Origin: a virus
DNA: 35,990 nucleotides
Virus record (IMG/VR): IMGVR_UViG_3300020548_000023
Location: 1 to 35,990 of that record
Strand: one strand, 5' to 3'
Under the pieces are notes generated by a model. The model was not told where the DNA came from. It saw nothing but the letters and a program-made list of their open reading frames with translations, and did not search any database. Shown here piece by piece: positions 381 to 12,545 of this stretch. The position numbers and the translations under genes are program-made. The first letter of the stretch is position 1. Each line of letters opens with the position of its first letter.

Positions 381-1349
381 ATGAACTTTTCAAACCTTAA
401 GAAACAATCCAAAGACTTCTCCAGCCTTCTCAAGAAGGTTGACGAGATGAATAAGCCCACCTACGATAAAGACGATTCCACAGACAACTATTGGAAGCCT
501 ACACAAGATAAGGCTGGCAATGCTCTTGCGGTTATTCGTTTTCTTCCTGGTCCTGCAGCGGATGGCGATGATGCTCTTCCATGGGTTCAGTATTGGGATC
601 ACGGTTTTCAAAACAAGTTCACCGGTAAGTGGTATATTGAGAAGTCACTGACCACTCTTGGTCAGGGCGTCAAGGATCCTGTTTCTGAATACAATTCTAC
701 TCTATGGAATGCTTCGACCGATGATAACTCACCAGAGCGTAAGCAGGCCCGTGAGCAGAAGCGTCGCCTCCACTATGTTTCTAACATCTATGTGGTGAGT
801 GATCCTAAGAATCCTCAGAATGAAGGCAAGGTCTTTCTATTCAAGTATGGTAAGAAAATCTTTGATAAGATTACAAAGATGATGAATCCAGACCTTGATT
901 CAGAAAAGAAGATCAATCCATTCGATCTTTGGGAAGGTGCTAACTTCAAGTTGAAGATGGTCCGTCAGTCTGGTTTTCCTAACTATGACGAATCGGTGTT
1001 CCTAACTCCAGGTCCTCTATCCGAGGATGATGGTGAACTTGAACAGATTTGGAAGACAGAATACTCCCTCAAGGAGATTATCGATCCAAAGAACTTCAAG
1101 ACATATGACCAGCTAAAGGCTCGTCTAAATGATGTTCTAGGTCTGACACCTGGCAAGTCAACATATACCGATGAAGTCCTTGAGAGAAATCTCGCTAAGG
1201 TCAAGGCAGCAAAGGTTGTTGATGAGGATGAGGATATTCCCTTCCATGATCCTAAGCCAGTTGCTCGCAAGGCAGCGGCACCTGTGATTGAGGACGAAGA
1301 TGACGATGATCCTGATCTAAAGGAATTTCGTGATCTACTAAACGACTAA
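381..1349 (+). CDS. 32: gp32-like single-stranded DNA-binding protein
   Basis: This 322-residue protein is close in length to T4 gp32 (301). It coats single-stranded DNA during replication, recombination and repair and contacts other replication proteins. The N-terminus has the basic LKKQSK segment expected for cooperative binding. The core contains the strongly conserved block around residues 126-155 (QKRRLHYVSNIYVV), then FLFKYGKKIFDKI and NPFDLWEGANFKLK. The C-terminus is very acidic (IEDEDDDDPDLKEFRDLLND), the typical protein-interaction tail. The protein has no cysteine: where T4-type proteins carry zinc-ligand cysteines, this one reads KDPVSEYNS (98-106), although a His (H74) remains nearby. 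AAGGA at 369-373 is a well-spaced ribosome site. The preceding leader is A-rich and looks unstructured, which would suit autogenous translational repression as in T4, but that is inference. Confidence 0.96.
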   Translation: MNFSNLKKQSKDFSSLLKKVDEMNKPTYDKDDSTDNYWKPTQDKAGNALAVIRFLPGPAADGDDALPWVQYWDHGFQNKFTGKWYIEKSLTTLGQGVKDPVSEYNSTLWNASTDDNSPERKQAREQKRRLHYVSNIYVVSDPKNPQNEGKVFLFKYGKKIFDKITKMMNPDLDSEKKINPFDLWEGANFKLKMVRQSGFPNYDESVFLTPGPLSEDDGELEQIWKTEYSLKEIIDPKNFKTYDQLKARLNDVLGLTPGKSTYTDEVLERNLAKVKAAKVVDEDEDIPFHDPKPVARKAAAPVIEDEDDDDPDLKEFRDLLND

Positions 1350-1356
1350 GAAGATT

Positions 1357-1384
1357 GGGGAGCAGAAATGCTCCCCTTTCTTTT
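1357..1384 (+). terminator. Hairpin terminator between convergent genes
   Basis: GGGGAGCA (1357-1364), a GAAA tetraloop, TGCTCCCC (1369-1376), then TTTCTTTT. This is an 8-bp GC-rich stem with a stable GNRA-type loop and a T-rich tail, ending the gp32 transcript. The T-run overlaps the stop codon of the convergent gene. On the minus strand the stem is not followed by a good T-run, so efficient termination is expected mainly on the plus strand. Confidence 0.9.
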
Positions 1385-4300
1385 ATCTGGCATTACCGTA
1401 GTTGAAGTGTCCTTCGCCAAATGTTCCTGGCGTTTCATTTCCATATGCTCTAGCAAATGCACGATAAGCAGATGGTGTATCCGCAGGATTCTGTATCATA
1501 TTCATTGTATGATCGTGATTTAGAACCTGTGTCACTGGTGATGGATTTTGTATTGTTGGCATAACATTTTGTGGCGGCGCCTGAGGCGTCATCATTTGCA
1601 TTTGATTTCTAATCTGGTTCATTTGCATACTGGTCATATCAGGAGCAGGTCCTGGTGTATTATGAACATGAGGCATCGCTGTCACAGTAGTCTGTTGTGG
1701 TGTCGATGCAGCAGGTACCGCAGGAGACGAAGATTGCGATATAACCGAAGCTGTGTCTAGTTGTTTTCTATATCCAAACTGTGACATAACATCATATCTT
1801 GAAGGATTAGAATATATGCCAAGAGGAGTTCTGGCTTCTCTAGAAACAGGAACAGTGGGTGCAGCAAAAGCTGGTGATGTTCTAACTTCTGATTTTGGTG
1901 TTGTCGCATTGATTTCAGCAGCCCCCGTAGAAGGAAACATTCTTTCCATAAATGTTTTTGGCGCTTGAGCCATCTGTGTAGTTGGACCAATAGTTGATGA
2001 CGGAGTTGCAGGTGTTGGTCCTACTTGACCTGTTGAGGATGCAGGCGTTGTCGATGCTAATTGTGTTCCTTGCTTCTCGGCAGCTTGTGCTACTTGTAAT
2101 CCTTCAAACTGCTTGCCGATTCTGTAAGAGTATTTCGTTGCATCTGTTCCAAATGCATCTGCTTTTGATGCACCTGTTCTTAACCACTTATTAGCGCCAC
2201 CTGCTCCTTGATTGTGAGCATAACCAAGGACTTTAAGTCTGTCTTCTGGAGACATGGCAGCATACTTTTTATTATTCTTCATTAAGTGATTATGATGTTG
2301 TAACACGTATGCATCAAAATACTTTTCTTGCATTTGTGGATTTTGCAAAAACTCGTCAGACGCCGCAATCTTTCTTGATCCTTTCATTCTTGCGACTGGT
2401 GCTTGCTCTCCTAGAAACTTAGCAATCTCTTTAATCTCGCCGCCGCCCATTTGATATGCACCAGCAAAACGATTGCTTGAACCACCACGAAGATTATAGT
2501 TACCACCACGACTTTCAATACTTGCTACAGCTTCTCTAAAAGCATTATATTGTTGTTGAGATGCGCCAATAGCAGGAGCAGCATGAATACTTGTATAATT
2601 CGCCAAGTTACTTTTTTGATTTAGACCTGACGATGATACACTAGGAGAATAAGTATCAGCTTTTCTTGCTCTTGTCTGTGTATGTCCATGAGTGTGTGAC
2701 GCTGCTCGATGACCACCTCTACCACCTGAGGTACGATTTATGTTTATTCTTGGTAATGCTCTTGGTCCAGCGTCACCCATACCTTCACCAGATAATCTTT
2801 CACCGGCGATAGAACCTATCAGTGGCATGATAAATCCCATTGCTGTTGTAATGAGGCCGAGTGGAGATGCTGTTCCGCCACCCATCATTCCTCCCATCAT
2901 ACCCATGAGATTTCGCATCATTGCTACAGGTTGCATTAGTGAAGCGGATTGTTGTTCTGCCTCACCCATAGATGCACCGCCGATATTACCAGGTTCACCA
3001 GCGTAATCTACATTACCTTCGACGCCAGGAGCAGATTCACCGCCAGTGCCTGGTGTTCCAGAGTTGGTACCAACCGCAGATTTTTGTGCAGGTGATCCGA
3101 GTCCTTGACCATATGCTAGTGCTTCTTGTGAAACTTCGTCATGAACTTTACCACCAGAAGAGATTAGACCAAATGATGTTGTCTTACCAGTATTACCGAT
3201 TGGATAACTATTCTTGTTAACCCACTTCGTTCTAGCACCGCCAGAACCATTGAATTGTTCTAGTAATAGAAAGTCACCTTTTTCATTTGGTGCTGTTAGT
3301 GCGACACCTGTATGATAACCAGAGTGAACTCTATCTGCGCCTGGATTGTTATATTGTTTTGTTGCTACAATCTGACCCGCTTTAATATCACCATCAACAA
3401 CCGTCCAGCTGTTCGATCTACCAATATTAGGATTAAACGCTTTTGACAGTGTGGCACATTGCTGTGCGTTTCTTGTGTCGTATAGCGATTTATCGTTAGG
3501 TACAATGTAGTTAGATACTACACTAAACTTAGCACCTTCTGTTCTTTGTCCTGCTTGTTTTGTCGTATCACCTGCAGGTGCGCTAGGAGTCGTGGCTCCT
3601 GTTCCTGCTTGTCCTGCTTGCTGTTGGGGTGTAGTCGCTCCACCTTTTCCTTGCTGTGGTGTAGTATCTGGTGCTTCATAAACATTTACCGCTCTTTGTG
3701 CATAACGCATTCTAACATCAAATGCTTCAACACCAGGATTTTCAAATCGTCTCATAAACACATGAGTTTTGTTTTGCAAACCTTGTGCGGCCATCATCTC
3801 TCTAAGTGCAGGAGCGTATGCGCCTTTCAACTCATCTCTTAGTGTTTCATAGTTTGCTTGATAGTTTGCTAAATCGCCGCCATACTTCTGAACGTTTGCT
3901 AAGAATTTGGCTTTTCTATCTGGACTTGTCCATTGAGCCCATCCACGACCAGGTCCTCGACCGCCTGCTTCTGACATTTGTCCGAATCCACCAGACTCTT
4001 CGCCAAGATTACCAACAATTGCAGCAGCGTCTTCTTTTGTTAAACCTGGAAAATCTCTTTGCAAGTCTTTCATAATTCTAGGAGCTAAGGCTTGAAACTG
4101 CTTACTACCTGTTCCTACAGAACTATCAGTGAAAGAACCGCCGCCATATTCTTGGCGCATTCTCGATAGCATACCACCTTGACGATCTAAACGAGTATCA
4201 ACGCTACCTTGCCATAGACTTTGTTTTCTAGCTGACTCTTTAGAGATAGCCTCTCTAAATCCGCCAACATCTGGTGTTCCTCTTCTAAAATAATCAGGAA

Positions 4301-4421
4301 AGAGTTCTGCTATCTGTGTAGGCGTGAGACCTTGTAATAGATTAGGATTAGACCTAACTAGTCTATCCCTTTCTTCGGATCTAAATTCGGCGAGTTTTGA
4401 GTAGTTTGATTTCTTTGCCAT
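1383..4421 (-). CDS. Tail hub protein with three candidate peptidoglycan-hydrolase domains
   Basis: This 1012-residue protein shows three separate wall-degrading modules. Residues about 110-250 resemble the phage tail lysozyme family (AAIVGNLGEESGGFGQ, candidate catalytic Glu141/142, then GRGWAQWTSPDR). Residues about 299-420 resemble BPSL0067/NlpC-type cysteine peptidases (NAQQCATLSK with Cys322; VHSGYHTGVAL with His366/His370). Residues about 622-775 resemble a transglycosylase/lysozyme fold (ASIESRGG with Glu636, FAGAYQMGGG, LGYAHNQGAGG). Between modules 2 and 3 lies a Met/Gly-rich hydrophobic stretch (496-540), then a His-rich patch (571-580). Pro/Gln/Thr-rich linkers separate the parts, and the C-terminal 230 residues are low complexity. 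It abuts the gp51-like gene (start one base after that gene's stop) and is last in the hub operon. It most likely sits in or near the hub and opens the cell wall during injection. No gp29-like tape-measure gene is visible, so such a role is conceivable but unsupported. The coding call is certain; the catalytic assignments are by motif only. Confidence 0.85.
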   Translation of the reverse strand: MAKKSNYSKLAEFRSEERDRLVRSNPNLLQGLTPTQIAELFPDYFRRGTPDVGGFREAISKESARKQSLWQGSVDTRLDRQGGMLSRMRQEYGGGSFTDSSVGTGSKQFQALAPRIMKDLQRDFPGLTKEDAAAIVGNLGEESGGFGQMSEAGGRGPGRGWAQWTSPDRKAKFLANVQKYGGDLANYQANYETLRDELKGAYAPALREMMAAQGLQNKTHVFMRRFENPGVEAFDVRMRYAQRAVNVYEAPDTTPQQGKGGATTPQQQAGQAGTGATTPSAPAGDTTKQAGQRTEGAKFSVVSNYIVPNDKSLYDTRNAQQCATLSKAFNPNIGRSNSWTVVDGDIKAGQIVATKQYNNPGADRVHSGYHTGVALTAPNEKGDFLLLEQFNGSGGARTKWVNKNSYPIGNTGKTTSFGLISSGGKVHDEVSQEALAYGQGLGSPAQKSAVGTNSGTPGTGGESAPGVEGNVDYAGEPGNIGGASMGEAEQQSASLMQPVAMMRNLMGMMGGMMGGGTASPLGLITTAMGFIMPLIGSIAGERLSGEGMGDAGPRALPRININRTSGGRGGHRAASHTHGHTQTRARKADTYSPSVSSSGLNQKSNLANYTSIHAAPAIGASQQQYNAFREAVASIESRGGNYNLRGGSSNRFAGAYQMGGGEIKEIAKFLGEQAPVARMKGSRKIAASDEFLQNPQMQEKYFDAYVLQHHNHLMKNNKKYAAMSPEDRLKVLGYAHNQGAGGANKWLRTGASKADAFGTDATKYSYRIGKQFEGLQVAQAAEKQGTQLASTTPASSTGQVGPTPATPSSTIGPTTQMAQAPKTFMERMFPSTGAAEINATTPKSEVRTSPAFAAPTVPVSREARTPLGIYSNPSRYDVMSQFGYRKQLDTASVISQSSSPAVPAASTPQQTTVTAMPHVHNTPGPAPDMTSMQMNQIRNQMQMMTPQAPPQNVMPTIQNPSPVTQVLNHDHTMNMIQNPADTPSAYRAFARAYGNETPGTFGEGHFNYGNAR

Positions 4422-4642: not shown

Positions 4643-5368
4643 TCAGAGAAAAAAATCAGCGAAATTCTTGTACCTCACTTTATGATCGAATCCACACTTG
4701 TTACATTTCGCTTCTATGTTGACCACGAAAGATGGAAAGTTTTCGATATATTCTTCCAGCTTTCTAAAGTTCTCTTCGGTCAGACCCATTACAAAGTCGT
4801 TTAGTTCTTCCTTGCTATAATCTTTTGCCGAGTAAACACCATCTTTGTCGTAAATGTAATCTATACTATTGACAACGATATTTACTGTTCTATCGATATC
4901 AAGGCCGCCGTCTATCTTCTTCATAGAGCCATAACCAGGATATTTCATTTTGACGCCCTTGCCACCACCTAGAGGTATGTCGTTAGGCACAGGATTATCA
5001 TTTACTAGTTCACAGTTTGAAACGTCCATCTCGGCAGAGAATATGTTGCCACATACTTTATCTTCCTCAATCACATTATTACAGGTTAATTTTACCGCTA
5101 CTTTTTCACCGATGCTCTTTGCTCTTAGGAAGATGAACAGAAAGTCTACCTCGAAGAACGGCGACTTATTTACATCAAACTTACCAGTAACGATACAGTT
5201 ATTCACGACCTGCTTGACTGTATTTACGATTTCATTTTGATCTTTTGACTCTAAAGCAATCAGTAATAGCTTTTCTTCTCTTACATTGAACGGTCTGACT
5301 GTCAGCGTTTCACCACTAATAGGCATCGTCAATTCGTAAGTAGGCACCTCAATCTTAGGTAATGTCAT
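4643..5368 (-). CDS. 26: gp26-like baseplate hub subunit
   Basis: This 241-residue protein belongs to the T4 base-plate gp26 family (T4 gp26 has 208 residues). The recognisable part is the N-terminal half: a YELTMPISGETLTVRPFNVREEKLLLIALES-type block at residues 11-41, followed by FFEVDFLFIFLRAKSIGE at about 71-88. In T4 the protein is part of the central hub. Four cysteines are arranged as two pairs, Cys96/Cys106 and Cys222/Cys225 (CNKC), which looks like a split zinc ribbon. GGAG lies eight bases upstream of the ATG on the minus strand. The gene is the third in the right-to-left hub operon, after a 28-base gap from the tube-like gene. Confidence 0.88.
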   Translation of the reverse strand: MTLPKIEVPTYELTMPISGETLTVRPFNVREEKLLLIALESKDQNEIVNTVKQVVNNCIVTGKFDVNKSPFFEVDFLFIFLRAKSIGEKVAVKLTCNNVIEEDKVCGNIFSAEMDVSNCELVNDNPVPNDIPLGGGKGVKMKYPGYGSMKKIDGGLDIDRTVNIVVNSIDYIYDKDGVYSAKDYSKEELNDFVMGLTEENFRKLEEYIENFPSFVVNIEAKCNKCGFDHKVRYKNFADFFL

Positions 5369-5396: not shown

Positions 5397-6056
5397 TTAT
5401 ATATTAGCTGCTACTCGTTTTTCCCAGTTCTTGAATGCGAATGAAACCTGTAATCTTAGGACTTCATTCTCTGCCCAAGATACTTGCTGAGGAGCAACTA
5501 AAACAGGCCAACACTTTTTCATTTTCCAAGCATATATTGGCTCAGGTACATATCTATTGCTTGCTCTTGATGTAGGCGGTATACCAGTGGCGTTATCTGC
5601 TTTATTGATGAAAGCATTTGCCAATGATCCATATTCAGCATACTGGAATATATCAATGTCTGTAAAATACTCGTTAGGATATTTGAAGTGATATGAGTTT
5701 GGCGGATTAATAATGTCCATCCAATCATCAAAGAATTGTCTTTCAAGTGTTTTACTACGACAAAGAAAGGTCAATGAGAAGTCATCGCCATATGTCGTAT
5801 TGGTAGGCATCATTTGCTTTGGACCGTAGTATCTGACTTCGGCAGTCTGAAATCCACGTCCAGGAAACTGTGCGGCTTCACAAGCATAAATCAATGTGCC
5901 TATTTTATTAGAGTAACTCAATCTAGGCAGTAGACCAGAAAGATTTATTCTAACCAGAAATCTACAACCCTTGACTACACTATAATTGTCGTCCAATGAA
6001 GCCATCATTGAACTGATTTCAGTTCTTAGCGGTGCGTTTGTTATATTAGCAGCCAT
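5397..6056 (-). CDS. gp19/gp54-type tail tube or tube-initiator protein
   Basis: This 219-residue protein has the tail-tube fold signature of the T4 gp19 family: an early VKGCRFLVRINLSG strand, EAAQFPGRGFQTAEVRYYG (about residues 76-94), a YGDDFSLTFLCRSKTLERQFFDDWMDII block, and a C-terminal LRLQVSFAFKNWE strand. T4 gp19 has 163 residues and gp54 320, so the length does not decide between them. Its place directly after a gp48-like gene and before gp26 argues for the gp54 job (starting tube polymerisation on the baseplate) rather than the main tube protein, which in T4-type phages lies beside the sheath gene. The start overlaps the upstream stop by one base (TAATG), implying translational coupling. 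Confidence 0.75.
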   Translation of the reverse strand: MAANITNAPLRTEISSMMASLDDNYSVVKGCRFLVRINLSGLLPRLSYSNKIGTLIYACEAAQFPGRGFQTAEVRYYGPKQMMPTNTTYGDDFSLTFLCRSKTLERQFFDDWMDIINPPNSYHFKYPNEYFTDIDIFQYAEYGSLANAFINKADNATGIPPTSRASNRYVPEPIYAWKMKKCWPVLVAPQQVSWAENEVLRLQVSFAFKNWEKRVAANI

Positions 6057-6841
6057 TAGTATCCCGTTTCGATTCTGTTTTTGTCGATGATTTCCATTTC
6101 TAGGAACGACATTGAAAGTCTGGCAGTTACAGGTCTTCCGTCTTCGAAGGTGCTAAACTCTGACATTGGATTATAATCAACATCGACACGACCTAAAACA
6201 CCCTTAGCGATGTATGGTAGATTAACATTCTTTGCCCACTGACCGTTAGGCTTTCTATAATGAAATTCGATTTCCCATTCAGAAGGACTTTTAAAGAATG
6301 CACCAAAAGGTCCTGCAATCTCTGGTGCAGCATGATATCTAAATCTGTTTAGCAGACCTCTCTTATCACTATTTGTTGCTCCAAATAGTTGATCGGCGTC
6401 CGCACTGGATTCTGGTGCAAACACGAAAGAGAAGGTAAATGTTCTTAGATTGGTGCTTCTATAGAGAACCTCGACTGCGGGATTGATAACACCTCTGAAT
6501 GCCGATCTAGCAACTGCACCAACTAGTCCCGACGCTCCAGTCTCTGCGCCTAGACCGACAGCGGTTGCTCCTAGACGAGATAGCTTGACCTCGTCATAGA
6601 CATGATTTTGTGCCCATGTCATAATACTTTCTTGACCACCACCAGGAATATAGATTTCAAAGATATCCTCTATCTCTCTTTTAGTGTTGAATGTCTCGCC
6701 TCCTGTTACGGATCGAACTAGCTGATTGGTAGGGCTACTAATCCAAGTAGGTACCTCCGACTTGAAAGCATAGAAAACGACTTTTTGTCCATATTCTGGA
6801 TTGTTATTTAAGTCGGCTGGAAAAACGTGATCGTATCTCAA
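6056..6841 (-). CDS. 48: gp48-like baseplate tail-tube cap protein
   Basis: This 261-residue protein matches the gp48 pattern: NLRTFTFSFVFAPESSADADQL in the middle, a PSEWEIEFHYR block, and a C-terminus reading ARLSMSFLEMEIIDKNRI. In T4, gp48 sits on the hub below gp54 and caps the baseplate so the tube can start. T4 gp48 is longer (364). The start is TTG at 6841, supported by GGAG seven bases upstream and by the absence of any ATG in the next ~70 codons. It is the first gene of the minus-strand hub operon and is transcribed divergently from the gp4-like gene, with a 43-base gap. Confidence 0.75.
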   Translation of the reverse strand: MRYDHVFPADLNNNPEYGQKVVFYAFKSEVPTWISSPTNQLVRSVTGGETFNTKREIEDIFEIYIPGGGQESIMTWAQNHVYDEVKLSRLGATAVGLGAETGASGLVGAVARSAFRGVINPAVEVLYRSTNLRTFTFSFVFAPESSADADQLFGATNSDKRGLLNRFRYHAAPEIAGPFGAFFKSPSEWEIEFHYRKPNGQWAKNVNLPYIAKGVLGRVDVDYNPMSEFSTFEDGRPVTARLSMSFLEMEIIDKNRIETGY

Positions 6842-7848: not shown

Positions 7849-8676
7849 ATGGCAGTCAGTAGTTTTTACGATCTATTTCCTAAAATCAATTATGATATTG
7901 AGAATAGACGACTCCAACCACAGTATGAGCAGGTCACCAATATCTTTCATCGTCTAGGCGTTGTTAGAGATGTTATCAATAACATTGGCTCATATATTGT
8001 TTACGATATTGAGGATGGCGATACACCAGAAATTGTGGCTCATAAAGTCTACGGCGACGCTGGTGGATTCTGGCTCATTCTACTAGCGAATAACATTATG
8101 GATGGTCAGTTTGAGTGGCCACTAGATCCAAATTCTTTCAATCAGTTTGTGATAGAGAAATATGGTTCTATCGAGAATGCTTTGATAACGCCGCATCATT
8201 ATGAAAAAGTAATAATAAGAAGAAATACCAGAACAGGATTTGAGTCGGTAACAAGATTTGTGGTCAATGGTGAAAGACTAACAGAGAACATGCCACCTGA
8301 AATTCCTTTCAGCTATTATGAACCATGGACGTCCACAACATATAGAACGGCCGACTCCTCATTTTTCAAAAGCGATAACGAATCCCCCGATCTACTAGCA
8401 GACTTGGACAACGGCGAACCATTCGGCGCATCTCTGGATCGTGGTAATCTAGCACTCACTGGAGAATTAATTCAACCCGAAATATATACTATCAATGGAG
8501 AACCTATTGAAATTGTTATTAAAGGTGAAATTGTGTATCAATACGAACACGAAAAAAGACTGAATGACGAGCGCCGATCGATTAAGGTCATCAAAAAAGA
8601 GTATTATGTCCAGATTCAGGACGAACTAAAAGCAATGATGTCCAATAAGCCATCTTACATTAGAAGGGTTTTCTAA
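7849..8676 (+). CDS. 53: gp53-like baseplate wedge protein
   Basis: This 275-residue protein carries the gp53 signature at residues about 1-105: SFYDLFPKINYDIENRRLQ, YDIEDGDTPEIVAHKVYGDAGGFWLILLANNI, and FEWPLDPNSFNQFVIEKYGS. The middle piece resembles a LysM-like fold. T4 gp53 (196 residues) joins adjacent wedges around the hub. Here the C-terminal half is longer and ends with a charged stretch (EHEKRLNDERRSIKVIKKEYY). AAAGGA lies a few bases upstream of the ATG. The stop overlaps the next start by one base (TAATG), implying coupled translation with the hub gene. Confidence 0.92.
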   Translation: MAVSSFYDLFPKINYDIENRRLQPQYEQVTNIFHRLGVVRDVINNIGSYIVYDIEDGDTPEIVAHKVYGDAGGFWLILLANNIMDGQFEWPLDPNSFNQFVIEKYGSIENALITPHHYEKVIIRRNTRTGFESVTRFVVNGERLTENMPPEIPFSYYEPWTSTTYRTADSSFFKSDNESPDLLADLDNGEPFGASLDRGNLALTGELIQPEIYTINGEPIEIVIKGEIVYQYEHEKRLNDERRSIKVIKKEYYVQIQDELKAMMSNKPSYIRRVF

Positions 8677-9920
8677 TGGCGGCTAATTCTGTCATGAATA
8701 ATGAACTACGAACGGTTACTATATCAGGAACACTGGGTGGTGCTGATAACTATGAGGATATTATTTGTAAAGAGATAACTGCTTCCGAGAGCCTACTAAC
8801 ACCAGGACTACAGACTTCCGCTACTTTTCAGTCTAAGGTATATAATAATCGTATATTCAAAAACTGGGATGCGACCAAAAATCAGGTTATGTTTTTGGAT
8901 ATGAGAAACAAGATAGGCGATGAAATGAAAATCGCCCAGACAATCTATCGTCTGGATAATCGTGAACTAAAAATCAATGTCGGTCAGATAGAAGAAATGA
9001 CTTTTCATGCCTGCGATGTTACATTGTTGAGAGACGCCAAGACGCTGGTTAGTAAATCATGGAGTTGTACCACACCAGATCAGGTCGTCAGATATGTTCT
9101 AGAGAGTTGTGTTGGTGCTAATAATCCAGATATTCAGGAGTCTAGTCCTGGTCGTGACTACATCGCCGAGATGATTCATCCATTTCAGGTTGTCCAGCAG
9201 CAAGCAAATATGGCGCTTGACGGCGATGATCCATCATTCGTTCACTTTATGACATATGGTAATAGACAAAACGGATGGGAAGCCAGACATCATTTTAAAT
9301 CACTAAAACAATTAGCAAATCAAACACCGAAGGCAATATACTATCACACAGAAACAGGTTATGCTGGTGGTCAGGGATATAATCAGGGAGATGTTTCGTT
9401 TCAGCGAGACAAAGATGGCGAGAAAGTTATTCACTTCAGCTTCCCCTGTGATTATGATCTATTGTCTGACTTGCTAAATGGTCTAGATGAAAATGGACGA
9501 AATATCAATTCAGGATCATTTCTAAATGTGTCAGATGCCACTGGTAGCTATCTAAATGGCACCATGTCTGGCTGTATTCAGAACGGTAATTTCAAGCAAT
9601 CGCTAACAAATAAAGGCACAGCGCAGCAGCAAAATGGTTGCGAAACGGACGTTGAAAAGCATCTATTGAGAAGACAGGCCAGAATGGGTCTACTCGAAAA
9701 AGACAAGATCGCATTGCGTCTAATCGCACCATGGAATCCAGAGTTACACGCAGGCGATGTTATTGAGTTTAGATTATTTGATAAGCAAGAGGGTTCACAG
9801 CTTCTATATGGTTCAGGTAACTATATGATTTCGTCTATGTCACATAGAATTTATCTTGGTGGTTATGCCACAACCACGCTAGATTGTGTGGCAACAACTG
9901 TAGGACAAGGAATAGTATAA
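8676..9920 (+). CDS. 27: gp27-like baseplate hub protein
   Basis: This 414-residue protein is close to T4 gp27 (391), the trimeric hub ring that joins spike and tube and resembles phage P2 gpD and VgrG N-terminal domains. The N-terminal half has an ITASESLLTPGLQTSATFQS tube-like strand pattern. The middle has the insertion typical of hub proteins (IAEMIHPFQVVQQQANMA, SFVHFMTYGN), and the C-terminus has APWNPELHAGDVIEFRLFD and a YMISSMSHRIYLGGYATTTLDCVAT hairpin, typical of the last gpD/gp27 domain. It sits between gp53 and the two spike genes, as expected. One-base TAATG overlaps on both sides indicate coupling. The fold assignment is by pattern and context, not by strong identity. Confidence 0.8.
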   Translation: MAANSVMNNELRTVTISGTLGGADNYEDIICKEITASESLLTPGLQTSATFQSKVYNNRIFKNWDATKNQVMFLDMRNKIGDEMKIAQTIYRLDNRELKINVGQIEEMTFHACDVTLLRDAKTLVSKSWSCTTPDQVVRYVLESCVGANNPDIQESSPGRDYIAEMIHPFQVVQQQANMALDGDDPSFVHFMTYGNRQNGWEARHHFKSLKQLANQTPKAIYYHTETGYAGGQGYNQGDVSFQRDKDGEKVIHFSFPCDYDLLSDLLNGLDENGRNINSGSFLNVSDATGSYLNGTMSGCIQNGNFKQSLTNKGTAQQQNGCETDVEKHLLRRQARMGLLEKDKIALRLIAPWNPELHAGDVIEFRLFDKQEGSQLLYGSGNYMISSMSHRIYLGGYATTTLDCVATTVGQGIV

Positions 9921-11323
9921 TGAGCAAGAGTTTTCCTTCACATCCTAAAGGTGAAATTACACCAATGGTCATCGCTGGTGGTAATAAGAATAGCGTCACA
10001 GGCACTTCTGAAAGACAAGATGGTGCAGCACCAATCTTTGATCCAATGCGTCATTCTCAACAAGATGTTAATCTCGAAGATTTGTGGTTCTCTGGATTAT
10101 CCGCACTACCAACTGCTTTTGGACAGAATAGCTTTATGGGACCACCTGATCCAGGAACAATCGTATATGTATTGAAGCAGGCAGGCGAAGCTGGTGGTGT
10201 TATTCTTGGTATGTCTAATACTGTCAGAAAAGGTGGTGAAGGCGCTGGAGGTGGTGGTTCTGATATTATGAACGGACCAATCATGCAACAGCTAAAGTCC
10301 GAAAAGATTCCTGTTAGTATTCCACCACAGATTCAAGAGACGACAGAACGTGGTGCAAGGATCCGAAAGATTAAAGAAAAAGGCGAAGAGCATTCTCTAG
10401 ATTTGCTCGATGGACTGCCAATTCACGGCGCTTTGTTCCAAATGACTGGATTTTTTCAGCCAGAGATTAAACAAGTTCCAACAGCTAAAACAAAAAACGA
10501 CAAGATGATGACCAATCAAATGTTTCAGCAGCTTGCTGGACAGGTCATGTCTATGGCGCAAATGTTCCAGGGACTAGCAAGCAAGGGTCGTGGAGGTAAT
10601 AACAATAATACCTACATACAAGGCATTATGAGTAGCGTTAATCCGCAAGTTGGTACAGCTATCAATAGTTTGTCAAAACTTGTGCAAGGACTAGACACAT
10701 CTGAAGGTATTGGGTTCGTTACTGGCGGCGTGGTTCACGAAGAAACATTTCTAGAAAACTCTGCTAATCTACTGTCACAAGTCACTACCATCGATGATTT
10801 GATGAATACGATGCAGAGACTTCAGTGGGACACAGAACTATTTGGTCAAGATAAGCTGGAGCCTGTAGAATATACACTAGACACAGCCCACGGTGCAATC
10901 ACACAAGTTGTAGATTTCGAAGGCAACATCGGTATTATTTACACAGGTAATACGATGAACAATATGAATAGCTGGGCAAATGTCATTTCAAGTCCTACGC
11001 AGTCTCCTGGTGGTGCTGGTTTTGCTCCTCCTCCAAGTAGCGGAGGACAAGGTGGACAAGCTGGCTCAATGATGCAGCAAATGTTTGGTAAGTCTTCTCA
11101 AATTATGCAAGAGTTGTTTAAGAGACTTTCCCCTAAACAAGAAAAAGAAGCCAAGAAAATGCACAAGACTCTAAATCAAAGTGAAACAGCCAAAAAACTA
11201 CATGAGATTTATAAAGAGACCGCAGAAGGCGGAGAGCCATTGAAGAAAGAAAATTATAAGAGTAAGACTGGTGGTGTTGGAACCGATCAATTTAGTATCG
11301 ATTTTAACTTTGGCGATTTTTAA
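9920..11323 (+). CDS. Spike-associated protein, OB-fold-like N-terminus
   Basis: This 467-residue protein starts at ATG 9920, overlapping the gp27 stop by one base; an earlier in-frame ATG at 9884 lies inside gp27. Residues about 45-100 (NLEDLWFSGLSALP, then PPDPGTIVYVL and GGVILGMSN) look like the oligonucleotide-binding domain of gp5/VgrG spikes, which packs on the hub. A glycine-rich linker follows. The middle is rich in Met, Gln and Gly (MTNQMFQQLAGQVMSMAQMF), with a strand-rich block at about 240-345 (VEYTLDTAHGAITQVVDFEGNIGIIYTGN). The C-terminal 100 residues form a charged, partly helical tail. No lysozyme motif is present. I infer it replaces the N-terminal part of T4 gp5 as an adaptor between hub and beta-helix. 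The coding call is strong; the role is moderate. Confidence 0.7.
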   Translation: MSKSFPSHPKGEITPMVIAGGNKNSVTGTSERQDGAAPIFDPMRHSQQDVNLEDLWFSGLSALPTAFGQNSFMGPPDPGTIVYVLKQAGEAGGVILGMSNTVRKGGEGAGGGGSDIMNGPIMQQLKSEKIPVSIPPQIQETTERGARIRKIKEKGEEHSLDLLDGLPIHGALFQMTGFFQPEIKQVPTAKTKNDKMMTNQMFQQLAGQVMSMAQMFQGLASKGRGGNNNNTYIQGIMSSVNPQVGTAINSLSKLVQGLDTSEGIGFVTGGVVHEETFLENSANLLSQVTTIDDLMNTMQRLQWDTELFGQDKLEPVEYTLDTAHGAITQVVDFEGNIGIIYTGNTMNNMNSWANVISSPTQSPGGAGFAPPPSSGGQGGQAGSMMQQMFGKSSQIMQELFKRLSPKQEKEAKKMHKTLNQSETAKKLHEIYKETAEGGEPLKKENYKSKTGGVGTDQFSIDFNFGDF

Positions 11324-11333
11324 TAGGAGATAA

Positions 11334-12545
11334 ATGATGGCAGCCAAAAGTAATGATAAGCCAGCAGGCACAACACCAGAAGATCCATATAATATTCGTG
11401 AGACAGCACGAAAAGGTAAAGGTGCTGGTGAAAATCCTAATTACTTTGCTTGGAAGGATCGCTCAGGTAATAACTGGGGTGCTGACGCTACAAAGGGACA
11501 CGAATCGATGTGGTTCCAGCATCGTTCTGGAACTGGTGTCGAACTATTTCCTGATGGTGCAATGCATCTTACGGCACATAATTCAAAGTATGAAATAACA
11601 TTCGGCGAAAATCGCATTACTATATCTGGCGCCCAAGATATCACTGTAAAAGGTGATGCGTCTCTCCGTGTCTATGGTGACTATAATCTTACATGCCATA
11701 AGAACTTTAATCTGGCTGTCATGGGTGATATGAATGTTACATCCAAGAATATGAACAGACAGATCCGTGGCAACATGGATACGCAAGCCAAAAACGTCAA
11801 TAAGAAGGTCGAAGGCTCTATTAACTATCAAGCACATGGAGCGGCTGCTTATGTTTCTAAAGATTCTACTACCGTAGCCTCACAAGCAGGATCAACTTTC
11901 TTGGCTGGAGCGTCGGGTCTACATGGTGCAGTAACACAAGAAGGCGATATGTCCTTCTTCAATGAAAAGGGTGATATGTTCCATGAGACTAAAGACGGCA
12001 AGTCAGATCAGAAATACGCCAGCAATGGTAAAGAAGTCAAAATTCTACACAAAGACGGTAAGACAGATCACACGGCTGACGAAGAAATCACCACAACTTC
12101 TACTAATAAGGGTATTACAACTACAGCCAAGCAAGATTATACGGTACAATCACAGCAAGGCAATATTCAGCATAAAGCCGATCAAGGTAATATTTCTACT
12201 AGAGCAATGCAAGGTAAAGTTGAAGTTAAGTCTGACTCTAGCGATGTTCACGTTACCGCTGGACAACATGCTGCAATCGAAGGAGGCGGCGGCACAACAG
12301 TAGGAAATGGCACAGCGACAACAAACGTTATTGGCGGTTCCTCTGGCGTAAATATCGAACCTCTGGGCGGTCTATTAAATCTCGCACCTGGTGGAACACC
12401 AACATTTGGTGGTTTGGGTCAATTGGCATTTAACTTCCTAACTGGCGATCAAGCACAGGGCGTCGGTGATCGTCGTTCTGAAAGAGCTAGTCAGCCGCAA
12501 GAAGAACCAGAAGATCCATGGATCAATCAACTGGACAGAACATAA
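11334..12545 (+). CDS. 5: gp5-like beta-helical central spike without lysozyme domain
   Basis: This 403-residue protein has a disordered N-terminus (about 1-35), then an FAWKDRSGNNW/MWFQHRSGTGVELFPDG adaptor. From about residue 78 there is a long array of short alternating strands (ISGAQDITVKGDASLRVYGDYNL, MGDMNVTSKNMNRQIRGNMD, and so on to about 300), with the V-x-G and hydrophilic-alternation pattern of the gp5/VgrG triple-stranded beta-helix. The C-terminal part is Gly-rich and ends in a charged tail. T4 gp5 carries OB fold, lysozyme and helix in one chain; here only the helix is present. Start choice: ATG 11334 is followed at once by ATG 11337, and the AGGAGA site is better spaced from the second, so the protein may be one residue shorter. 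A late-promoter-like box overlaps its stop codon. Confidence 0.85.
   Translation: MMAAKSNDKPAGTTPEDPYNIRETARKGKGAGENPNYFAWKDRSGNNWGADATKGHESMWFQHRSGTGVELFPDGAMHLTAHNSKYEITFGENRITISGAQDITVKGDASLRVYGDYNLTCHKNFNLAVMGDMNVTSKNMNRQIRGNMDTQAKNVNKKVEGSINYQAHGAAAYVSKDSTTVASQAGSTFLAGASGLHGAVTQEGDMSFFNEKGDMFHETKDGKSDQKYASNGKEVKILHKDGKTDHTADEEITTTSTNKGITTTAKQDYTVQSQQGNIQHKADQGNISTRAMQGKVEVKSDSSDVHVTAGQHAAIEGGGGTTVGNGTATTNVIGGSSGVNIEPLGGLLNLAPGGTPTFGGLGQLAFNFLTGDQAQGVGDRRSERASQPQEEPEDPWINQLDRT

Follow-up and report, generated by a model that had tools for sequence, protein, structure and literature searches.

Which protein opens the host cell wall for a phage whose spike protein has no detectable lysozyme domain? 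The question is raised by IMGVR_UViG_3300020548_000023, a complete record of a T4-like virus of bacteria, 35,990 bases long, in IMG/VR, a collection of environmental DNA (the window), and in particular by its gene P0001, which encodes a chain of 1012 amino acids directly after gp26 and gp51. The chain holds three different candidate wall-hydrolase modules, a tail lysozyme, a likely cysteine peptidase or amidase and a lytic transglycosylase, as an earlier note made from the same DNA had claimed. We regard it as probable that P0001 belongs to the tail of the virion and breaches the cell wall of the host, that it stands at the tape-measure position, and that it carries three catalytic heads, the outer two of which occupy slots (A and B) for exchangeable cassettes. 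The more unusual feature of the locus, missed by the earlier note, is that near-identical phages have exchanged hydrolases.

Three hydrolase-type modules in P0001

The open reading frame (ORF) is intact at the position first given for it but lies on the minus strand. The module in slot A matches the Phage_lysozyme2 family (PF18013) at residues 126-248 with an E value of 2.8e-17 and 63.6 bits, the curated cut-off being 28.2. E142, S143, G160, Q163, R169, E197 and R237 are invariant across 13 aligned diverse homologs. E141, which had been named together with E142 as the active site, varies among them, and the catalytic candidate of this module is therefore E142 (codon 3996-3998).

An AlphaFold2 model of the middle module, built with 11 relatives, has a predicted local distance difference test score (pLDDT) of 84 and a predicted template modeling score (pTM) of 0.80. 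The best 15 rows returned by VIA-align are CHAP, NlpC/P60 or wall-amidase entries, with an exception in the title of 2lrj, which reads just 'staphyloxanthin biosynthesis protein'. Among the matches are PcsB (Z 7.6, the maximum, a score too low for VIA-align to be trusted by itself), the CHAP domains of LysGH15 and LysK, and the type VI amidase Tae2. Foldseek matches were weak, the best being the CHAP domain of the phi812 hub (E 0.1). Cys322 (codon 3456-3458) and His370 (codon 3312-3314) are invariant in 11 sequences, and Cys33 of the model begins a helix (33-40); His366, the alternative histidine put forward for the active site, varies. The model makes a CHAP/NlpC-P60-type fold likely, so the NlpC-like half of the label first given to the module stands. 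Its BPSL0067 half is not confirmed, since no Pfam match to that family was found at E values up to 1, an absence that does not exclude membership. The module had no match in any phage record by tblastn at E values up to 1, and no relative was found in bacterial genomes.

The third module, in slot B, matches phrog_5867 ('endolysin') with an E value of 9e-27. Its model superimposes on MltE over 147 residues (VIA-align Z 12.7, root-mean-square deviation 3.0) and on phiKZ gp144 (Foldseek E 1.4e-3, probability 1.00), and it also resembles Slt, MltC, phi6 P5 and the T7 core protein. The best 50 VIA-align rows all have the lytic transglycosylase/goose lysozyme fold or are close kin of it. Glu636 (codon 2514-2516), the residue proposed earlier, is invariant in 7 sequences within the context IES...G...YQMG. 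No SLT match was found in Pfam, and searches of PDB sequences with the transglycosylase profile, or with the full P0001 chain, returned nothing useful.

Structure prediction gives a hydrolase-type fold for the third module and, with less certainty, for the middle one. Judged from families and models, two modules are of the glycan-cutting type and one of the peptide- or amide-cutting type, a pairing that had been foreseen. Homologs of the modules are present in many other contigs, which rules out chance. The chain begins with a conserved region carrying the LTPTQIAELFPDYF motif, the hallmark of the P0001 family, and the extreme C-terminus is conserved in the C-terminal alignment. The hydrophobic segment after the middle module is conserved in closer relatives, with AlphaFold2 confidence below 50.

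Exchange of hydrolases among relatives

Searches of IMG/VR recovered more than 20 loci of the P0001 family (L-numbers such as L002 and L014 denote related loci, the close relatives of the window being from IMG/VR). In nearly all of them, where this is visible, an operon of gp48, gp54, gp26, gp51 and a P0001-like gene is convergent with gp32. Replacement affects the two outer modules, whereas N-terminal region, middle module and C-terminus are kept. Slot A holds Phage_lysozyme2 of one of three divergent lineages (the window and L002; L014 and L015; L022, L033, L027, L040, L042 and L046), SLT_3 (L021 and L047) or Hydrolase_2 (L025). In slot B, where the exchanged region covers about residues 570-790, the transglycosylase of the window is also found in L002, L003, L025 and L027, and a VgrG3-like muramidase domain (PF21277) is found in L015, L021, L022, L033 and L040. 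Each slot holds a recognized wall hydrolase wherever both slots are complete and the family can be assigned; since this is so in nearly every complete, readable relative, function appears to be kept through replacement.

DNA comparisons show such breaks at slot A. Between L002 and L014, identity is 94-100% over the aligned backbone and falls to about 40% in slot A; L015 matches L022 at 97-100% at both ends, but slot A does not share this identity. The reverse pattern is seen between the window and L002, with slot A 93-100% identical and the flanking stretches 43-86%. At residues identical in these two proteins, codons differ at 11 of 158 positions in slot A versus 207 of 450 elsewhere (p 2e-21). 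On the evidence of these DNA identities, the exchange of slot A is recent; recombination at slot B of the window was looked at by pairwise comparison. When slot contents were placed on a tree of four upstream proteins, parsimony required 7 changes for slot A in 12 taxa and 6 for slot B in 10 taxa. None of 500 shuffles of slot A content exceeded the observed 7, and the slot B value likewise equals the maximum, which shows that slot content carries no signal on the backbone tree.

A separate observation concerns residues ~61-90, just before the differing slot A cassettes, where the DNA of the window and L014 is 98% identical; further upstream the two are 64-82% identical. The stretch is a possible recombination anchor.

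Position of P0001 in the tail operon

P0001 is the final gene of a minus-strand operon that comprises gp48-like, tube-like (gp54/gp19), gp26, gp51 and P0001 genes, which bears out the membership of a hub operon first claimed for it, and it converges on gp32. The gp27-like, gp5-like, gp25 and gp6 genes are on the plus strand, further along the window. The match of the gp5-like gene to the gp5 family is confined to the C-terminal part, and profile searches detected no lysozyme domain in this gene or in the one before it. As the spike gp5 homolog is without a detectable lysozyme, the modules of P0001 are the sole injection-side candidates seen in the window. Over window positions 8676-12545, gp5 appears divided between two genes, a first one that matches no family and the beta-helix gene.

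Close to its stop codon, gp26 has an in-frame T_TTT_TT[T/C] heptamer from which the -1 frame runs into gp51; this is so in the window and in 19 of 19 relatives examined (L002, L014, L015, L021, L025, L027, L029, L033, L041, L042 and L047, and the phages S-ShM2, S-PM2, P-SSM2, DLP6, HTVC008M, Melnitz, S-CREM2 and S-B05). For gp51 of HTVC008M and of Melnitz, the -1 frame encodes the conserved N-terminus, which has no start codon of its own, and the annotated gp51 begins inside it. The same scan over 237 ORFs of a 172-kb relative found this heptamer site alone. T4 differs in having genes 26 and 51 on opposite strands. The 72-residue gp51-like protein also matches the C-terminus of phrog_150 (gp26; E 0.0027). 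The heptamer sites suggest, at the level of sequence, a programmed frameshift of the lambda G/GT type that would yield a gp26-gp51 fusion, and a slippery site of this kind supports the tape-measure position of P0001. The tail assembly chaperones reported for T4-like phages are presumably the products of genes 26 and 51, and gp26 and gp51 of the window fit such a role. The report of those chaperones is that of Vladimirov et al. 2022, as cited in PMC10885494.

The same locus was compared in sequenced phages. S-ShM2 has Phage_lysozyme2 in one protein and C39 with GH24 in the next (S-ShM2_013/014); S-B05 has M23 and the transglycosylase of the window; S-WAM1 (S-WAM1_011/012) has Amidase_2 (E 3e-5, just under the cut-off) and the same transglycosylase; and S-PM2 (S-PM2p207/208) has Phage_lysozyme2 and M23. 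DSL-LC03 carries SLT and VanY as separate genes. In S-CREM2, gp208 and gp209 adjoin gp26 and a 66-residue ORF and carry GH19 and GH24 domains; both are virion proteins by mass spectrometry, with 73 and 71 unique peptides (PMC10665884). In HTVC008M the annotation 'putative tail tape measure' stands on the gene that follows after one more small ORF. P0001 is placed at the tape-measure position because it directly follows gp26 and gp51, together with the evidence from the cyanophages, S-CREM2, HTVC008M and the chaperones.

Two side observations were made at these and related loci. The large protein encoded next to gp51 in S-PM2, S-PM2p207 (L056:9886-13389), contains, in addition to its tail lysozyme, a region that matches an ADP-ribosyltransferase family (PF01129, residues 66-218, E 1e-5, above the cut-off). 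A 2093-residue protein at L028:516-6794 combines a GH24 lysozyme, a subthreshold M15 peptidase and the transglycosylase module of the window, making a second three-hydrolase chain, on a different scaffold.

Comparison with known systems

The T4-like cyanophage proteins (S-ShM2, S-B05, S-WAM1, S-PM2 and S-CREM2) resemble P0001 in locus and large size and in carrying one or two wall hydrolases each, but they are two separate proteins rather than one, their N-termini are unrelated to that of P0001, and their hydrolase sets are different (C39, GH24, M23, Amidase_2 and GH19). Their two-hydrolase proteins are unannotated as such. Like P0001, the 'lysozyme' AAY80_233 of Stenotrophomonas phage DLP6 is large, is encoded near gp51 in an operon that converges on gp32, and has a muramidase domain (GH108, E 1e-26). 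It differs in having one recognized hydrolase, in the 148-residue ORF that separates its gene from gp51, and in the lack of detectable N-terminal homology. The likeness to T4 gp5 would be one of function, namely local digestion of the wall by a tail enzyme during injection. P0001 is no homolog of gp5, which in T4 provides a single lysozyme in the spike.

Hydrolase domains are also known in the tape measure proteins of TM4, T5 (pb2) and phiIPLA35, as cited in PMC6116005. These proteins share with P0001 a wall hydrolase inside a protein at the tape-measure position, but usually have one hydrolase and a long helical body, where P0001 has three and disordered linkers. The nearest precedent is the hub protein gp15 of Anabaena myophage A-1(L), for which an excerpt of PMC10966104 describes a lysozyme, an endoglucanase and a peptidase domain, with activity demonstrated for the endoglucanase and the peptidase. 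Both are single tail-tip chains of myophages with three hydrolase-type domains that join glycan and peptide cutting. According to the same excerpt, however, gp15 is a hub barrel protein separate from the phage's own tape measure, and cassette exchange is not mentioned there. Given the A-1(L) hub and the two-hydrolase cyanophage proteins, the suggestion that such a combination was undescribed holds only in part: three hydrolases in one myophage tail chain are not new in kind. P0001 differs from the A-1(L) hub in locus and domain set, and most of all in that near-identical phages exchange entire hydrolase domains.

Proposed role and alternative explanations

We infer that P0001 is most likely a multi-enzyme drill tip at the tape-measure position. 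It would most likely be packed within, or at the end of, the tail tube and be released into the periplasm on tail contraction, where three heads joined by flexible Pro/Thr/Gln/Gly linkers may act together. The slot A lysozyme and the slot B transglycosylase would cut glycan strands, and the CHAP/NlpC-P60-type enzyme would cut stem peptides or the amide bond. P0001 may in this way take over the wall-opening role of the gp5 lysozyme, because the spike homolog has no detectable lysozyme domain. Recombination in flanking regions would place different hydrolases in slots A and B of near-identical backbones, and the exchange probably matches host wall chemistry.

Several results weigh against this interpretation. 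The N-terminus of P0001 has no homology to the same-locus proteins of the cyanophages, HTVC008M, Melnitz and DLP6 (best hmmsearch E 0.3), and the chain appears to lack the extended helical stretch that tape measures normally have. For the middle module, neither Pfam and NCBIfam nor PDB sequences gave a match, and its VIA-align score counts in the same direction. Slot B of L047 has a subthreshold Hydrolase_2 match (E 0.004), and that of L042 has no domain recognized by Pfam or PDB sequence. In L025 the middle module is replaced too, by a subthreshold M15-like stretch (E 0.02) that Pfam and PDB sequence did not resolve. Every close relative is a metagenomic contig.

The most serious alternative, which we rate as possible though clearly less probable, takes P0001 for a cargo lysin of its own, in the baseplate hub or the tube lumen, and another, unrecognized gene for the true tape measure. 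Much of the chain is rich in Pro, Thr, Gln, Gly, Ser and Ala, and a partial-chain model has AlphaFold2 confidence below 50 over residues 480-600; such a composition and such low-confidence linkers would suit cargo. So would the length of the family proteins, which changes with cassette content (804-1312 amino acids), the absence of homology to annotated tape measures, and the A-1(L) case, in which the excerpt of PMC10966104 places the multi-hydrolase protein in the hub, apart from the tape measure. P0001 nevertheless stands directly after gp26 and gp51, and no other ORF of at least 300 amino acids in the 172-kb relative stood out as a tape measure by sequence start or composition, in a genome not annotated in depth. 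As the chain seems to have no long helical body, P0001 may act as a tape measure or as a cargo or hub protein.

It is unlikely that one or more of the modules are catalytically dead domains that bind the wall. The lysozyme domain of A-1(L) gp15 offers a parallel, being annotated by fold, and the activity text in the excerpt of PMC10966104 names just the endoglucanase and the peptidase. The catalytic-type residues of P0001 are, however, invariant across divergent relatives, and the replacing module, as far as it can be assigned, always belongs to another recognized family of wall hydrolases.

That P0001 is an endolysin for lysis from within is very improbable, although PHROG 5867 and several records call proteins at this locus 'endolysin' or 'lysozyme': it sits inside a tail/baseplate operon, to our knowledge no Gram-negative endolysin is like this 1012-residue chain with a hydrophobic segment, and the operon position with the S-CREM2 virion data led us to reject this reading. 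It is equally hard to credit that the cassette pattern is an artifact of metagenome assembly between co-occurring strains, for although all family members are metagenomic and the complete L002 arrangement is known from one contig, the L014 type (2 contigs), the L015 type (at least 4) and the window type (3) recur across different IMG metagenomes.

Features of the window and hints of the host

Features at and around P0001, with tmRNA loci of relatives
Feature	Position	Strand	Basis
P0001, three-hydrolase tail protein, 1012 amino acids	1383..4421	minus	intact ORF; orthologs with same neighbors in IMG/VR contigs
d0, residues 1-94, conserved N-terminal region with LTPTQIAELFPDYF motif	4140..4421	minus	aligned in all family members having the N-terminus
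Slot A, residues 95-262, Phage_lysozyme2 cassette	3636..4139	minus	PF18013 at residues 126-248; recombination signal
d2, residues 299-430, likely CHAP/NlpC-P60-type cysteine peptidase/amidase module	3132..3527	minus	AlphaFold2, VIA-align, invariant Cys/His
dH, residues 485-560, Met/Gly-rich hydrophobic segment, peak 520-539	2742..2969	minus	hydropathy, conservation
Slot B, residues 601-790, lytic transglycosylase/goose-lysozyme-fold module	2052..2621	minus	phrog_5867, model matches, invariant E636
dC, residues 791-1012, low-complexity Pro/Thr/Gln-rich tail	1386..2051	minus	composition
gp32 single-stranded DNA-binding protein, convergent neighbor	381..1349	plus	PF08804, E 3e-41
Terminator-like hairpin between P0001 and gp32	1357-1376		
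gp51-like tail assembly chaperone extension, 72 amino acids	4422..4640	minus	phrog_634, E 1e-21
T_TTT_TTT slippery heptamer near gp26 stop	4649..4655	minus	-1 frame open into gp51
gp26-like tail assembly chaperone, 241 amino acids	4643..5368	minus	PF12322, E 3e-53
Tail-tube-like protein (gp54/gp19 family)	5397..6056	minus	phrog_45, E 3e-32
gp48-like baseplate tail tube cap	6056..6841	minus	phrog_230, E 1.5e-28
gp5-like spike C-terminal beta-helix	11334..12545	plus	phrog_430 positions 315-569, DUF2345
Two-piece transfer-messenger RNA (tmRNA)	L003:6386-6730, L035:13795-14160, L041:13104-13506, L047:14528-14905, L063:5940-6300		Rfam

The gp27-like protein of the window (phrog_350) had no tblastn match among 50,697 phage records. 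In several relatives Rfam matches above the cut-off (alpha_tmRNA and tmRNA_permuted) reveal a two-piece tmRNA, permuted and of the alphaproteobacterial type, with tags such as AANDNVPFDYALAA; none was found in the window. A phage-borne two-piece tmRNA is known already from Melnitz (PMC9004378). These RNA matches in relatives hint at an alphaproteobacterial host. As for psbA, a sign of a cyanobacterial host, no Photo_RC match was found in five relatives, which may be incomplete.

Implications

The results suggest that P0001 serves as a set of interchangeable tools for getting through the host wall. We propose, tentatively, a platform for hydrolase exchange, in which a fixed tail scaffold offers two swap slots and co-circulating phages trade wall cutters through recombination in conserved flanks and linkers, so that entry is tuned to the peptidoglycan of the host. 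If true, hydrolase exchange would be the wall-level counterpart of receptor-binding-protein switching. The host range of phages is mostly discussed in terms of receptors and intracellular defenses. Nearly identical phages trade their wall-opening enzymes yet retain the layout of three enzymes. This suggests that diversifying selection acts on the peptidoglycan step as well, and it predicts that phages with the same receptor and a different cassette would differ in wall specificity. The cassettes would then form a natural library of matched hydrolases for Gram-negative walls, and many of the 'hypothetical' proteins encoded after gp26 and gp51 in T4-like aquatic phages may be multi-enzyme tail lysins.

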